The notes below the pieces were generated by a model. That model was not told the DNA's origin, made no database searches, and worked only from the letters and a program-made list of their open reading frames with translations. Below, one piece after another: positions 9,182 to 63,600 of a stretch of 64,000 nt of DNA; position 1 is the first letter of the stretch; each line of letters starts with the position of its first letter. The stretch lies in NCBI GenBank assembly GCA_019059635.1, contig JAGVRJ010000004.1, positions 1,302,001-1,366,000 on the forward strand, in the 5' to 3' direction. Source of the DNA: Proales similis. Its lineage: Eukaryota > Rotifera > Eurotatoria > Ploima > Proalidae. A program made the position numbers and the translations under genes.

Positions 9182-10969
9182 TCAGATGAACTCGGAGACC
9201 GAGAGCAGGATTTTGTTCTTGATGGCCGCGCTCTCGCACAAGCCGCTTATGAGCTTGGCGCCGATCTGCTGACAAGCGAACGCGTTTGTCGAATTGGCGC
9301 TGGCCACTTTCAGTTCGGATGGCAGTTGCCCGCTCGTCGCCGTTGTGCTGCCGCAGTCGCCCAGTAACTGTTCCACATTGATCAGAGAGCCCAAGAGTAT
9401 GAGCGTAAAATGCAACGCTTTCAACTCGTTCTCTTTTAACTGAAACGCTGAAGCTGCTGGCTGGCTGTTGGCAGCGAATTTCTCATTCTGAACGGGATAA
9501 AAGGTCTGGCCGGCCAAAGTCGCTCTACTCTCGCGTGCGTTGGTAAAGAAAGGCGGCGTGGCTAGTTCTGTTTGAATTGTTGGTTCACTTTTAAGCTCAA
9601 AATTGTCTCTGGATTGAGTGTCGATCGCCTTGTCCGACAGCTTGGCTCGTTTGCTTTGCCGTTCAACACTGGACTCTGTTTGGAGGGCGATCGTCGAGTA
9701 GACTCTGTTCAGACTCTCAATGAGGCTCTTCTCGTACCGACTCAGGTCGGGCGTCTTTAGTGCCGACAATGATGTGCTCCGACTCAGATATTGACTCAGC
9801 GACTCGACTTGTGAATCAAAGTCGACCAGATAGGCAAAGGCCACAAACAGGCCGCGTCTTATTAGAGAGAGTTCTTTGGAGCTCTTGGAGAGGTGAAATG
9901 TTGGAGCTAGAAGGTCGCTGTTGTGGCTGTTGTTGTTCTGATTGTTGTTCTTGTCGATTTTAAAAGAGTTGCTCAACATCAGATTGCCGAGCGTAGCGGT
10001 CAGGTCAAGCAAATGCTCTTTGATGCTCGTTTCGTTGTTCGTCTGGCGGATCAGTGTCTTCTTAGACTCGATTTCGCACATGATCGCAGTGAGCAGCTGC
10101 TCGTCACTGGCGCCCTTCAGCGAAGTGTTGAACGGCGTCGAGCCGACCAGACTTCGATCTTCGTTTAGAAACTCGAACGAGGACAGAGTCGTCGAAGAGG
10201 ACGCCGACAGGTCTGTGCATAGACTGTAGGGGTCAGAGTTGAATGCGTTTCTTTGTTGAGCTGCTTGGCCCGACTCGAACGGATAGGAAAAGGCCCTGCT
10301 GCCACAAGCGGCTCGGCTATCACTGAAAAACTCGCGACCGAAATCGATCGACGCCGCCTCGTCTCTCGGCTTGTTCAGACCGCCGGCACTTATTTGACCG
10401 CCTGTGTACCAGACCGTGTTGTAGTAGGTGTCATAAGCGCTCTGACTGGTCAGCTCGGAGAACGAGTTGCGAGCATCGTGATAGGTCGATGCGCAAACGT
10501 GAGAGTAGTCATTTGTGGGACTGGCGATCTTGAGCCCAAACCGAGGCGAGGTGGACACCGCACTGTAGTGGTCTATGATTGACATCGACTGCAGAGAGTC
10601 GGGCGTGCCGAACGCGTTTGCTTGGCTGCTGGCAAGAGATGGGAGATGGCCTGACGAGTCGAAATAGACTTGGCCACTCGGCTGGCTGAACTCGTATTGC
10701 GAGCTGGACAGAACTGGCTCGTTGCTCGGGCCCATGCTGAAATAGCTCTTTTTCTCAATATCGTTCGGATAAGAATGCTGCAGCGGAGTGTCGAGTTTAG
10801 CGCTCTCCGAACGCTTCAAATTGAGCGAATGATGCTCTCGCTGAAGGTTGAAGTTGTTAGAGGACGGAGGCGAGAGAGACGACGAATGGTGATGGTGCTG
10901 ATGATAGCTGGAGCCTAAATTGACCGCCGGGCCTGAGGCTGATGTGGACGCCATGTACGATGTATCCAT
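9182..10969 (-). CDS. orphan intronless protein, 595 aa, Ser/Asn-rich
   Basis: A single uninterrupted frame of 595 codons from an ATG at 10969. I do not recognise the family. The N-terminal third is low complexity (a His run YHQHHHHSSS, many Ser/Asn/Gln). A central part has helical segments (LLTAIMCEIESKKTLIRQ; HLLDLTATLGNLML), then an Asn-rich run, a hydrophobic helix LFVAFAYLVDF, an NLS-like KRAKL, and a C-terminal helix KALHFTLILLGSLINVEQL. There is no signal peptide. The layout resembles a nuclear regulator, which is inference. A strong acceptor (pyrimidine tract plus CTTTAG at 11001-10996 on this strand) lies 26 bases before the ATG, implying an upstream non-coding exon. It faces the long gap shared with FARSB. 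Confidence 0.7.
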   Translation of the reverse strand: MDTSYMASTSASGPAVNLGSSYHQHHHHSSSLSPPSSNNFNLQREHHSLNLKRSESAKLDTPLQHSYPNDIEKKSYFSMGPSNEPVLSSSQYEFSQPSGQVYFDSSGHLPSLASSQANAFGTPDSLQSMSIIDHYSAVSTSPRFGLKIASPTNDYSHVCASTYHDARNSFSELTSQSAYDTYYNTVWYTGGQISAGGLNKPRDEAASIDFGREFFSDSRAACGSRAFSYPFESGQAAQQRNAFNSDPYSLCTDLSASSSTTLSSFEFLNEDRSLVGSTPFNTSLKGASDEQLLTAIMCEIESKKTLIRQTNNETSIKEHLLDLTATLGNLMLSNSFKIDKNNNQNNNSHNSDLLAPTFHLSKSSKELSLIRRGLFVAFAYLVDFDSQVESLSQYLSRSTSLSALKTPDLSRYEKSLIESLNRVYSTIALQTESSVERQSKRAKLSDKAIDTQSRDNFELKSEPTIQTELATPPFFTNARESRATLAGQTFYPVQNEKFAANSQPAASAFQLKENELKALHFTLILLGSLINVEQLLGDCGSTTATSGQLPSELKVASANSTNAFACQQIGAKLISGLCESAAIKNKILLSVSEFI

Positions 10970-24557: not shown

Positions 24558-25631
24558 TCAAATGTTTTGTGTCCATTGCAATAGAGCGTCGACCTCGTCG
24601 TCGTCGATCTCGTCCTCCTTCTGCTCAGTGACGATCTCAATCACTCTCAGTTTGGCACTGCTGGCCGTCGATGATGTTGCTCGGTTTGGTTTCTCGTTTT
24701 TCTTTTGGATGGTCTCGATTTCGGTGGACACGTTTGATATAGAGCGGCCCCTGTGGTTCTCGCTCGACGTGAAATCGAATCGGCCGTACATGATTGCCCG
24801 GTGCTCGTTCAGCTGCCGGTTTATCTCTTCTTCTAGCTCACGAACGGATATCGACACATGCTGACCGAGCAAGTGAGGCTTCTGCAAGAGCTCGCCGTTC
24901 AGATACGGGTTCTTGTCGACCGCTTTCGACTTGCTGGTGGCGATTCCTTGCCACAGTTTGAAGTAATCATCGTAGCAGATGTTTTTCGTCGCTCCTCTTG
25001 ACTCGGCTCTTTTGGCTGGCGAATTCGTCTCTCTCTTGTTGTTTGCCGCCTCTTTTCTGTTTGCCTTTTGCTCGAACAAATGCATCTTGTCAGAGCTGAG
25101 TGCGTCTGCGCTTTCAAACGCCTCAAGGCTATTCTGCGCACTGGCTCGAGGACTCGAGTCGAGCAAGTGGCGAAGTTTTCTACTCAATTGAACTGATTGC
25201 CGAGCGATCGACTCGTATCGATCTGGATCGTCTTTGTAGAGGAAGACGGCGTCGATGTTGACCGCTCTGTCGAGGAGAGGACAGGCCAGCAGATGCTGCA
25301 GAGTTCTCAGCAGTTGCTTGAGCGTGGTTCCCGCCTGCCATTTGCCCGGCTCGTCTAGAATGGCCATGCTCGGCTTTCCGCTGTGTGGGTCCACGTTCGG
25401 GTGATAAGGAATGGTCTGAAAGCAGACCTCGGGCGCTTCTCGGTCGTACTTTTCGCTGAAGCGAATGAACAGCTGAAATATGCCCGACTGCCAGCATGTT
25501 TGACTCGGGCCTTTGACAAACGCGACCAGCTCGTGGATGCTGTCCTTGTTGAGCTTTTTCACCAACAGATCCGACTCTTTGTTGGCTTCGTCGATCTGAT
25601 TTTGAATTAGAAGATGCGCTCGAGAGAGCAT
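24558..25631 (-). CDS. UBE2U: UBE2U-like E2 with serine at the catalytic cysteine position
   Basis: A single exon of 357 residues. The N-terminal ~150 residues are an E2 (UBC) fold most like UBE2U: WQSGIFQLFIRFSEKY, then IPYHPNVDPHSGKP and LDEPGKW. The HPN motif is at 77-79. In UBE2U the catalytic Cys follows P in this stretch; here the residue is Ser88 (codon AGC, 25370-25368). The link to UBE2U, rather than another E2, is confirmed by its special C-terminal half: DDYFKLWQGIATSK, LLGQH, and DEVDALLQWTQNI near the end. A Cys-to-Ser E2 cannot form the normal ubiquitin thioester and would act as an adaptor, or at best form an oxyester. The frame is intact, so it is not a decayed pseudogene. Confidence 0.88.
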   Translation of the reverse strand: MLSRAHLLIQNQIDEANKESDLLVKKLNKDSIHELVAFVKGPSQTCWQSGIFQLFIRFSEKYDREAPEVCFQTIPYHPNVDPHSGKPSMAILDEPGKWQAGTTLKQLLRTLQHLLACPLLDRAVNIDAVFLYKDDPDRYESIARQSVQLSRKLRHLLDSSPRASAQNSLEAFESADALSSDKMHLFEQKANRKEAANNKRETNSPAKRAESRGATKNICYDDYFKLWQGIATSKSKAVDKNPYLNGELLQKPHLLGQHVSISVRELEEEINRQLNEHRAIMYGRFDFTSSENHRGRSISNVSTEIETIQKKNEKPNRATSSTASSAKLRVIEIVTEQKEDEIDDDEVDALLQWTQNI

Positions 25632-26379
25632 TTTTCACGCATGACGGCAATCAGCAAACATTAGAGCAATGACTGCACAACTTAATCCGGGCTTAGGCGA
25701 CTGCTGGTAGGAAAAGAGAGAGCGCTTAAGCCAAAGGCTGCTTCTTTGCGATTATTGGTTGCCATGGCAACCGTTCATCTCGGTCGGTGGCGTTTGCTCA
25801 ACACCTCAGCCTAGCTTCTAAAGACCATTGATTTTGGCTTATTGGCTTTAAATATCAAGAATTCTCTAAATATCTAGCTTTTTCTTCACTTTATTTGAAG
25901 AAGTAGACGACGATAATGATCAGCAAGGGAAGATGAATAAGAACCAAAGAAGAAGAGGAAATAGACAATTGCTGTTTGAATGGAATAGATCTATTCCGCT
26001 TTAATGCACATAACGTCTCCAAAACATGTGATCGAGATGGCCATTCTGAAATGGCCGCCGTCTGAAATTATGTAATTTGCCTCTCAGGCGATTTATTGTG
26101 TTCAGCGAGAGAAAATTTTGTTTTTTTTTTTTGTCATTCGTTTTGTCGGTCGCTAATTATGACGCTGGCTGATGTCGTGTGCTGCATCCAGTCACTAAAA
26201 ATTGATTCAAATTGCGATTAAAACGCGGTAATGTCGACGTGAGCCGCAATAAATTGAGAGCGTTTAAGTTAAGAGTTTGAGAAGCAGCGAGCGGATTAAT
26301 GTTTAACGCAGCACAAAGAGTCTAAAGTGAGCCGTTAATTGAAATGAACGGACGACGCCACCTTGACAAAAAGAGATCA
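25632..26379. other. non-coding region between UBE2U and kinesin light chain
   Basis: A 748-base gap; UBE2U starts at its left edge and KLC ends at its right. AT-rich, with T-runs and no coding signal. It should hold the UBE2U promoter and the KLC 3' UTR. Confidence 0.45.
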
Positions 26380-60600: not shown

Positions 60601-63600
60601 TTTCGATTCAGACATTTGTTTGTTGCTGCGACTAACCCCGAACGTAATAACGACCGTTTTGCTTAATTCTTTGCTTTTTTGTCGTCGTCGTTTGTTGCCT
60701 CTGTTTGTTGGTTGAATTTTCTCAATTTAACCCTCTGACGGGCCTAAACCGCTCTGACCGCCAGCTAAATTGTGTTCAATTTCAAGATCAAACAAAGGCG
60801 AGCGGAAGAGAGTCGCTCTCGTATTCGAGTGTTGCTCTGGCAGTCGGCTTCAACAGAACGCAGAGCCCGCGTCTGCACGCATTTGAAGGCCAAATGCAGC
60901 AGTTGATCATCAACGGCCGCTCTTACTTCGAGCTCATACACAACGGAGAGCTGGAGCATGTGGTCGAGAGTAGCGCCAGCTTCTCGCGAGCAGACACCAT
61001 CCATCGCTACCCGATCACGTTTCACCAGCACAGCTCGTGGCTCACTCTGCCGCGGGTGCGCGCCTCGCATCGATTTCTCATTCAGCTTCATTTCAAAACA
61101 AGCGAGCCGCACGGCCTTTTGCTCTTCAACGCCGGCGTGGGCAGCGACTTCATTTCGTTGGAGCTCATCAACGGTCAGATACAGTTCGCGTTCGGCGTCG
61201 ACGATCAAATCGGGCAAATAGAGTCGAAAATGAAGCGTCTGCTAAACGACAATCGATCGCACGTGGTCAGCGTCTGGCGTCCGACCGTCAACGAGTTTGA
61301 GCTCAGCGTCGACTCGCTTGTCTACACAAGCACCCTGAAAAAGTCCAGCAGCCGATCGTTTAATCTGATCGACGAGCTCTACGTTGGCGGACTGAGGTCG
61401 CCGAGCGAATTTGACCAATACAAGTCGAGAGGCTTCATCGAGTCGAAGCAGGGATTTAAAGGCTGCTTGGCATCGATTGAAGTGAACGGACGCTCGCCCG
61501 ACTACGACCAGCTCTTTCATTTGACCGGCAACTTGCGTGGCAGCATCTCCAAAGGCTGTGAGAGTAAGTATCAGTCAATTTCTCTTGCTGACGCGTCAGG
61601 CTACAGTTTGTCGACTAGACCCGACCAGATGCGAACCAGACACTTGTCAGAACGGCGGCGTTTGCATCGAAAAGTGGCACGAAGATCGACGAGTGTGCGA
61701 GTGCAGCATGACCTCTTACATGGGCGACTTTTGTCAAATAAGTAAGATCCTGCCCGAACTTGAACCGAGTGCTGAATTCGACAAATGTACTTGGTCGCCA
61801 CACAGGAAGCCTGGGCTTCGAGTTCCGCGACTCGATGATTCGCTTCGAATACAAAAGCCCCCTGTTCTGGCAAGAGGACAGTGTGGCATTCGGCATTCAA
61901 ACTCAACAGCCTGAAGTGTTCCTGTTCCGCTCTTTCAAGCCTCGGACTAACGAGACAATCATGATTGAGATAGTGAGTAGCAGCAAGAATAATGCCGAAA
62001 TTCTTCAACTATTTCAACTTGTCAAAAGGTGAACGGGATGATTCGGGCCACCATGCGAGACCTGAACGGCATCGTTCACTTGCAGCGGTTCAGCAAGTTT
62101 GCAGTCAACGATGCAGCCTATCACGTGGTTCAGTTCAAAACGGCCAATTTCAACACGAGCCTTATTGTCGACGGCCAGAGTAGTCGCAAAGAGCTGATCG
62201 CGCCCAACAGTAAGTCCCGCAGCGTTTTAAATTATCTTATTTGTCTATTGACAAATTATCTAATTTGTTCGGATCGTGTGTGTGTGTGTGTGTTTGCGAG
62301 ATCGATTTAAAATGTTCCAACAGAAGAGCAAAACATAAAAAAGAAAGAAATAGCAGCAAAATGGTGCAAAATAAGAAGAAGAGAAGGAAAAAGGCCTCGG
62401 CGCACAGCATATTATTTACACAAAGGTTTAGAACCTTTAGAGAAGCGGAGTCGAACGAGTCTGACAACAAGCAGGAAAAACACCGTTATCAGAGTGAGCA
62501 CAAGTCGAGAAGGACGCGAATCGAAGCATCTCAATCGGGTGAGAGTGCTGTCCGATTGATTAGGCAGTTTAGGGCCGATGCTAGACGATGCGGACGAAGT
62601 CAATCGCTCACTATCGAGTCGATTGGCTACTTGACGCATCAGCTGATGCTCTGGTGGCGGCAACGTTGGCGCAGATGGCTGATGCTTTGTTCCTGATTTC
62701 GCCTCTTGAAGCTCGAACTCGATTGACTTGACTCGAATCAGATCGACCAGTTGACGCAGAGAAACGTTCACATCGGGCAGCGAGCTGGCCAGCTCTCGAC
62801 GGCACATCGGACATGTTCGCTTCCTGTGCTGAACAAACCACTGAAGAGAACAGGCACGGCAAAAACTGTGCCCACAGCTCATCGTGGTCGGCTCAATAAG
62901 CTGGTTGTGGCAGATTGAGCAGTTTAGAATTTGGCCCACTTGGTCCATTAGCAGCATTTCAGATCGATCCATCGCCTCGGTTTGTTGCCTGTTCGCGCTG
63001 ATTATTTTCACTCTCGAATTTCAACTTGATGCTGAGCGCCGCTCGCTGAGTAGCTCGAGTATTCGCATTCGATGCTCGCCGCTTTTTTTAAATATCCCAG
63101 ACATGCATTCACACCCTTTTTGGTTTGAATTGCTTATTCTATTTCAAACGACGTAGGTTGCATTGGGCGAACATTTGAACACGAGCGACATAATTAAACT
63201 TTATAATTCGGTCCTGAACATTTTCATTACGTAATTGTACTCTTCATCTTCTTTTTTATGCTGCTCACTTGCTCACTCGCTCTCTGGCCCTCAATTCTAA
63301 AGAGCAAGTCTATTCCACACGTGCTTTGATAAGTTGATTTTCCCATTTTGCGCACTCCCTCTCTCTTGAGCCCTGCTCGACAATGCTTCGCTTTATTTAC
63401 TTTTAATCCAGTTTCGCTGGCCAACCCTTCTTTTTTTTATTGTCGAGTTTTAACATTCTTTACCTGGCGTTTAAGGTGAAGGTCCTTTGAAGCATTACAG
63501 ACCATGGGCAATTCATGTGGACCCCAATCTGCTCGCAGTGGAAGTCGGCGGCTGCCTAGAGTTCAACGATCTAGACAACAGCATTGAGCATCGCGTGAGT

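Follow-up and report, generated by a model that had tools for sequence, protein, structure and literature searches.

What becomes of a ubiquitin-conjugating enzyme (E2) when the cysteine that accepts ubiquitin is replaced? The question is raised by a gene of the monogonont rotifer Proales similis, located in the stretch of 64,000 nucleotides analyzed here (the window), whose product resembles UBE2U and has a Ser at the catalytic position. A first, sequence-only reading of the locus had described a UBE2U homologue in which HPN is kept, the residue after GKP is Ser88 (AGC, 25370-25368) instead of Cys, the C-terminal UBE2U region is kept, and the frame is open. It concluded that selection seems to maintain a non-classical or pseudo-E2 and added that a recent origin or an assembly error could account for the change. 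The gene is confirmed here as an intact, single-exon, single-copy UBE2U homologue with Ser88, directly after GKP (residues 85–87), in place of the catalytic Cys. Its features are collected in Table 1.

Table 1. Positions, in the window, of the UBE2U-like gene, its domains and motifs, and the promoter element.
Feature	Position	Strand	Basis or remark
Palindromic X-box (RFX site) GTTGCCATGGCAAC	25758..25771 (genome C4:1327758-1327771)	.	126 bp before ATG
CDS of UBE2U-like putative pseudo-E2	24558..25631	-	357 aa, one exon, ATG to TGA; start and end align with homologues
UBC (E2) fold, residues 11–146	25194..25601	-	Pfam UQ_con, E 1.6e-24; pLDDT; Foldseek
HPN motif, residues 77–79, kept	25395..25403	-	122/122 aligned rows
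Ser88 codon AGC at catalytic Cys position	25368..25370	-	Cys in 0/27 clade members
Asp121–Arg122, loop next to the former active site, aligned with the CES/D position	25266..25271	-	D in 27/27 and R in 27/27 of clade
Residues 129–133	25233..25247	-	V129, F130, and K133 fixed at >=96% in clade, rare in Cys-type rows (conservation comparison)
UBE2U-specific C-terminal region, residues 219–289, helices	24765..24977	-	Conserved Y223, W227, A231, T232
C-terminal motif, residues 344–357, EVDxLxxWTxN(L/I) in most homologues	24561..24602	-	Conserved L350, W353; helix 344–356

The UBC domain is nearest to that of UBE2U by both sequence and fold. The best match of the window protein among PDB sequences is 1yrv (E = 4.7e-25), in which the aligned catalytic residue is Cys; this entry is labelled “ubiquitin-conjugating ligase MGC351130” and is, we assume, human UBE2U. 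The same entry is the top Foldseek match of the predicted fold (RMSD 1.7 over 143 columns, 36% identity). Among the best 120 of 126 proteins, named homologues are mostly annotated as UBE2U, and the matches listed include UBE2U from molluscs, annelids, a brachiopod, echinoderms, amphioxus, and vertebrates. When the genome was searched with the window protein, its own locus (3.0e-238) was followed by other E2s at 25 to 35% identity, and the Cys-bearing amphioxus UBE2U also ranked this locus first. A second, intact UBE2U, with the present gene evolving neutrally, had been named as the finding that would overturn the first reading; neither query detected a second UBE2U-type locus in the P. similis genome.

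The C-terminal half of the protein is colinear with that of UBE2U. Residues 178–327 of amphioxus UBE2U match at the P. similis locus in the genome search, and both the C-terminal region and the terminal motif align with those of homologues. AlphaFold2, run on 80 aligned sequences, predicted residues 1–150 as a block with mean pLDDT values of 93 to 98 (pTM 0.54) and, with medium confidence, helices at residues 220–231, 242–248, 252–258, 263–282, and 344–356, confidence being low in between. The C-terminal region had zero matches among PDB sequences. Pfam PF28463, which is listed in databases for some homologues, was absent from our own Pfam scans.

An alignment with UBE2U of related species had been called for, and we assembled one from two protein searches, the second providing the best 120 of 126 proteins. 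The resulting 121 homologues and the window protein give 122 rows, of which the catalytic column contains 91 Cys, 27 Ser, 2 Ala, 1 Asn, and 1 Met. Quick trees were built from the 105 rows left after 17 Cys-bearing rows had been dropped, for the most part mammalian isoforms and near-duplicates, together with one chimeric model and two mollusc models. A careful tree was built from 80 of the 122 rows, leaving out the rodent Ser rows and removing the catalytic column. In this careful tree, the window protein and 26 relatives form one clade with a support of 100/100. Cys is found in none of the 27 members (referred to below as the clade); the catalytic residue is Ser in 23, Ala in two (P0019 and P0022), Asn in one (P0008), and Met in one (P0068), and the Ala, Asn, and Met members sit on separate tips. 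Five members consist of the UBC domain alone, with lengths of 165 to 174 residues, and the N-terminal part is missing from P0011 and P0074.

The clade shares with UBE2U, as represented by 1yrv and the named homologues, the UBC fold, the PxHPNxxxxxGxP context, and the C-terminal region and motif. UBE2U is also its closest relative in score and in fold and, among the UBE2U-type sequences that make up the trees, in phylogeny; the other E2s of the genome were compared by score. Ser also occupies the catalytic position outside the clade, in Dreissena polymorpha (P0049) and in the cricetids Cricetulus, Phodopus, and Sigmodon (P0086, P0088, and P0113), the three cricetid rows forming one clade (SH-aLRT 99). 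The minimum number of changes between Cys and non-Cys on the 105-row tree is three, and the minimum among all five states is seven, as expected if Ser was the outcome of each loss and four tips of the clade underwent a second change. Judged by the tree, Dreissena and the cricetid rodents lost the Cys of UBE2U independently of the clade. Like the clade, their proteins combine a Cys-to-Ser change with a kept HPN motif; unlike it, they are without the D121/R122 pair.

The 26 relatives are probably rotifers, since they group with a named rotifer and since CTU1 sequences from the same kinds of metagenome source resemble that of P. similis no less closely than Brachionus CTU1 does. CTU1 adjoins the UBE2U locus; among the best 120 of 5087 matches, the best named ones, from Brachionus plicatilis and B. 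calyciflorus, are 79% identical to the P. similis protein, compared with 82 to 83% for CTU1 from these metagenome sources. Among the 121 homologues listed there is no named UBE2U from Brachionus or bdelloids, though the database includes Brachionus proteins.

The surroundings of the former active site differ between the clade and Cys-bearing UBE2U. In a comparison of 27 clade rows with 52 Cys-type rows, the active-site strand (residues 70–98) is about equally conserved, with mean entropies of 0.94 and 0.89, whereas residues 110–131 are more conserved in the clade (0.60 vs 1.27). Eight positions are at least 90% identical in the clade and at most 15% in Cys-type rows, namely D121, R122, V129, F130, K133, Y243, Q257, and F287. 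Arg at position 122 occurs in 27/27 clade members and in 0/91 Cys-bearing rows, and Phe at position 130 is likewise found in 0/91 Cys-bearing rows. We mapped position 122 to the CES/D site through an alignment with Ubc9 and by correspondence with UbcH5; from the general E2 fold, we take residues 121–133 to be the rim of the active site. The protein of P. similis thus has the HPN motif of active E2s, lacks their catalytic Cys, and carries Arg122 at the CES/D position, where active E2s have an acidic or phosphorylatable residue (PMC4604453, in part).

A thiol that had moved to a nearby position was also considered. No such thiol has moved in, because 15 of the 25 members with a complete UBC domain have no Cys in it at all, and C117 is private to the window protein; a shifted thiol is thereby ruled out. 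The second Cys position, 146, holds Cys in 92% of Cys-type rows and Ser or Thr in 26/27 clade members. Clade proteins are also generally poor in Cys (0.30 vs 1.07 per 100 residues), and nine of the 20 full-length members have none. CTU1 needs its cysteines and is hence a poor control for this comparison.

These data bear on several explanations of Ser88. AGC and TGC differ by one base, and a sequencing or assembly error at a single codon is conceivable on that ground, but 26 relatives from other records are also without Cys and other positions have changed too, which leaves such an error with a negligible probability. For the same reason, the alignment and tree indicate that the loss is old and clade-wide, and the suggestion of a recent or artifactual change in the sequence-only reading is unsupported. 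A gene that is neutral or relaxed and on its way to being lost in P. similis would fit the long terminal branch of the window protein (0.92 in the careful tree) and two private changes beside Ser88, D90A and F91I. Because of this branch and the loss of D90, which is kept in 26/27 clade members, constraint on the P. similis protein may be weaker than that on its relatives. Against loss of the gene stand an intact C-terminal motif, clade-wide conservation, and 357 open codons, given that all of 300 neutral simulations (substitutions only) had acquired at least one stop by the point of 70% protein identity, as they also had at 55% and 45%; the open reading frame is therefore not a chance frame, and we consider decay of the gene very improbable. 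Related DNA suitable for a dN/dS analysis was absent from a scan of viral contigs.

If the gene is maintained, it could still serve ubiquitin transfer. One way would be an E2 that depends on Ser, carrying ubiquitin as an oxyester on Ser88 and passing it on slowly, perhaps to hydroxyls. The Ser found in 23/27 clade members, in Dreissena, and in the cricetid rows would agree with this, as would the HPN motif of all 122 rows. Cys-to-Ser mutants of E2s, however, are used as stable oxyester traps that transfer poorly, and Arg stands at the CES/D position throughout the clade. Moreover, four of 27 members, on separate tips, have Ala, Asn, or Met instead, so that the clade as a whole cannot depend on a Ser ester. 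Taken together, we regard Ser-based transfer as quite unlikely, and these four members favor the pseudo-E2 alternative of the earlier claim of a maintained non-classical or pseudo-E2, a claim that otherwise holds. Another way would be a cofactor of the UEV type, that is, a dead E2 that, as the partner of an active E2, holds the acceptor ubiquitin in position, in the way Mms2/UBE2V assists UBE2N. These variants share with the clade the general state of an E2 fold without the catalytic Cys, and the clade differs in forming a separate lineage, in keeping HPN, and in having the UBE2U C-terminal region. The nearest structure is 1yrv, and none of the best 60 of 258 PDB sequences is a UBE2V, UEV, or MMS2 by name, so that kinship with UBE2V is not seen. 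In the accessible part of an interactome study, a UBE2U bait bound other E2s, from which its authors suggest that UBE2U may have an accessory role (PMC10646096); this would suit a UEV-like part, which we nonetheless hold to be unlikely.

What remains, and is well supported by the comparisons above, is that the clade would have taken the step to a pseudo-E2. By this reading, ubiquitin loading is probably absent, and D121/R122 together with V129/F130/K133 would most likely form a partner surface.

Published work, as far as its accessible passages go, agrees in portraying UBE2U as an odd E2 even where the Cys is present. UBE2U is described as lacking both canonical conjugating activity and the CES/D residue (PMC4604453), the reported interactome names no E3 or DUB partners (PMC10646096), and UBE2U did not support Cbl E3s in vitro and made a two-hybrid contact independent of the RING (PMC6533038). 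The title of a 2017 JBC paper, cited in PMC8385108, refers to an RNF17–UBE2U pair regulating RNF168, which speaks for a catalytic function of UBE2U in mammals. Expression has been placed in the urogenital tract (PMC11354881 and PMC9380329, both in excerpt). Two further mentions are weak pointers from partial texts: swine UBE2U is among the down-regulated genes tabulated in a study about ciliary genes (PMC7426424), and UBE2U appears in a list of Pax6 targets that are up after brain injury (PMC5828078). Among the papers listed in a literature search, no title or abstract opening reports a Cys-less or ciliary UBE2U.

Where the protein might work is suggested by its promoter. The element GTTGCCATGGCAAC upstream of the start codon is a perfect palindromic X-box, as would be expected in the promoter of an RFX-controlled gene, and it is the only match in 64 kb when up to one mismatch is allowed (0.01 expected) and also when up to two are allowed. 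A perfect X-box before the ATG of a Cys-less UBE2U is newly seen here. The consensus GTNRCC N0-3 RGYAAC, given in an excerpt of PMC10530576, is looser and also matches the window at 9356 and 27333 (shuffling gives an expectation of 0.3 per strand), for which reason only the perfect form is informative. The upstream neighbor, a gene with TPR matches that presumably encodes a kinesin-light-chain-like protein, is encoded on the same strand, with its end at a distance of about 1.2 kb; the X-box therefore most likely belongs to the UBE2U promoter. The genome of P. similis also contains an RFX gene (E = 7.9e-32).

Perfect palindromic X-boxes occur 25 times in the 32.7 Mb of the genome, compared with 0 for a reversed control. 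We sampled 15 of the 24 other sites (14 at loci L035–L048 and one at L005), picked 30 ORFs from the open frames at these loci for Pfam scans, and searched six of them also against PDB sequences. Ciliary or sperm genes were found at 4/15 loci, two above the Pfam cut-off and two as weaker calls. CFAP206 (FAP206 Pfam, 2.3e-40) has an exon 1.45 kb from its site, which it has in common with a TFIIA gene whose ORF is nearer, at 0.38 kb on the opposite side, and SPATA6 (Pfam, 4.1e-14) has an ORF 0.55 kb away. A WD40 exon has DAW1 as PDB ranks 2 and 3, below a WD-40 repeat protein (2ymu) and above WDR5; reading it as the dynein assembly factor DAW1 is in part our assumption. An IFT56-like exon has a single PDB match (E = 0.0013). 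Two other loci resemble, to our eye, ciliary genes: L040, which we would liken to DYNC2I1, has no match among PDB sequences, and L045, which we would liken to a MAK/CILK1-type kinase, matches MAPK1 and CDK2 there. L037 and L044 have no match among PDB sequences, and the loci beyond these are unmatched or have non-ciliary domains (WSC, SSF, F-BAR, and Pkinase). A background Pfam scan of 10 window ORFs without such an X-box returned zero ciliary families, apart from the kinesin-light-chain-like TPRs, which resemble the nephrocystin-3 TPR model. The perfect X-box is thus a possible marker for ciliary genes in P. similis.

The genome search found eleven other E2 loci, all of which (11/11) have the catalytic Cys. 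One of them, L005, which we take to encode a UBE2L3-like E2, has a perfect X-box (position 893; C13:989493-989506) 485 bp upstream of its open frame; this site lies between the E2 and a divergent coiled-coil frame and may serve either. Within about 1.5 kb of nine other E2 loci there is no X-box with at most one mismatch, and one of them has a site with two mismatches. In the E2 of L003 (C6:2343905-2344246), presumably UBE2D/E-like, HCN replaces HPN and the catalytic Cys is kept. Elsewhere in the window, 62412-62972 (-) encodes a RING-finger protein with a hydrophobic C-terminal stretch.

We think it probable, on balance, that the gene is a maintained E2 pseudoenzyme kept for binding, most likely as a structural or adaptor part in the motile cilium or sperm flagellum. 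In this course of events, the Cys would have been replaced once, most simply by Ser, before the sampled clade split. The fold would have been kept afterward for binding rather than catalysis, with no ubiquitin borne as a thioester, and the rim of the dead site (D121/R122 and V129/F130/K133) would have become fixed as a surface for a partner. The cilium or sperm flagellum is the most likely place of work because X-boxes like this one also lie near ciliary and sperm genes of the same genome; motile cilia or sperm are proposed from one promoter element in one species and from the neighbors of that element. On a second look at the DAW1 and CFAP206 loci, we give this step slightly less weight. A wider proposal, possible but doubtful at present, is that UBE2U across animals is mainly a non-catalytic part of motile cilia and sperm flagella built on an E2 fold, whose thiol is dispensable and was lost at least three times and whose dead site in rotifers was rebuilt as a binding surface around Arg122 and Phe130.

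Little is understood about UBE2U, an E2 whose activity was weak or absent in published tests, as far as their accessible text reports. A clade that has lost the thiol yet retains the fold, HPN, and the C-terminal region, together with two further independent losses, means that UBE2U may be able to do its conserved job without transferring ubiquitin. As E2 pseudoenzymes in which the catalytic position is occupied by Ser, Ala, Asn, or Met, its members would form a natural series. The cilia-type promoter is a pointer to where UBE2U function can be sought, and this function thereby becomes testable, in mouse sperm or in an animal with cilia.
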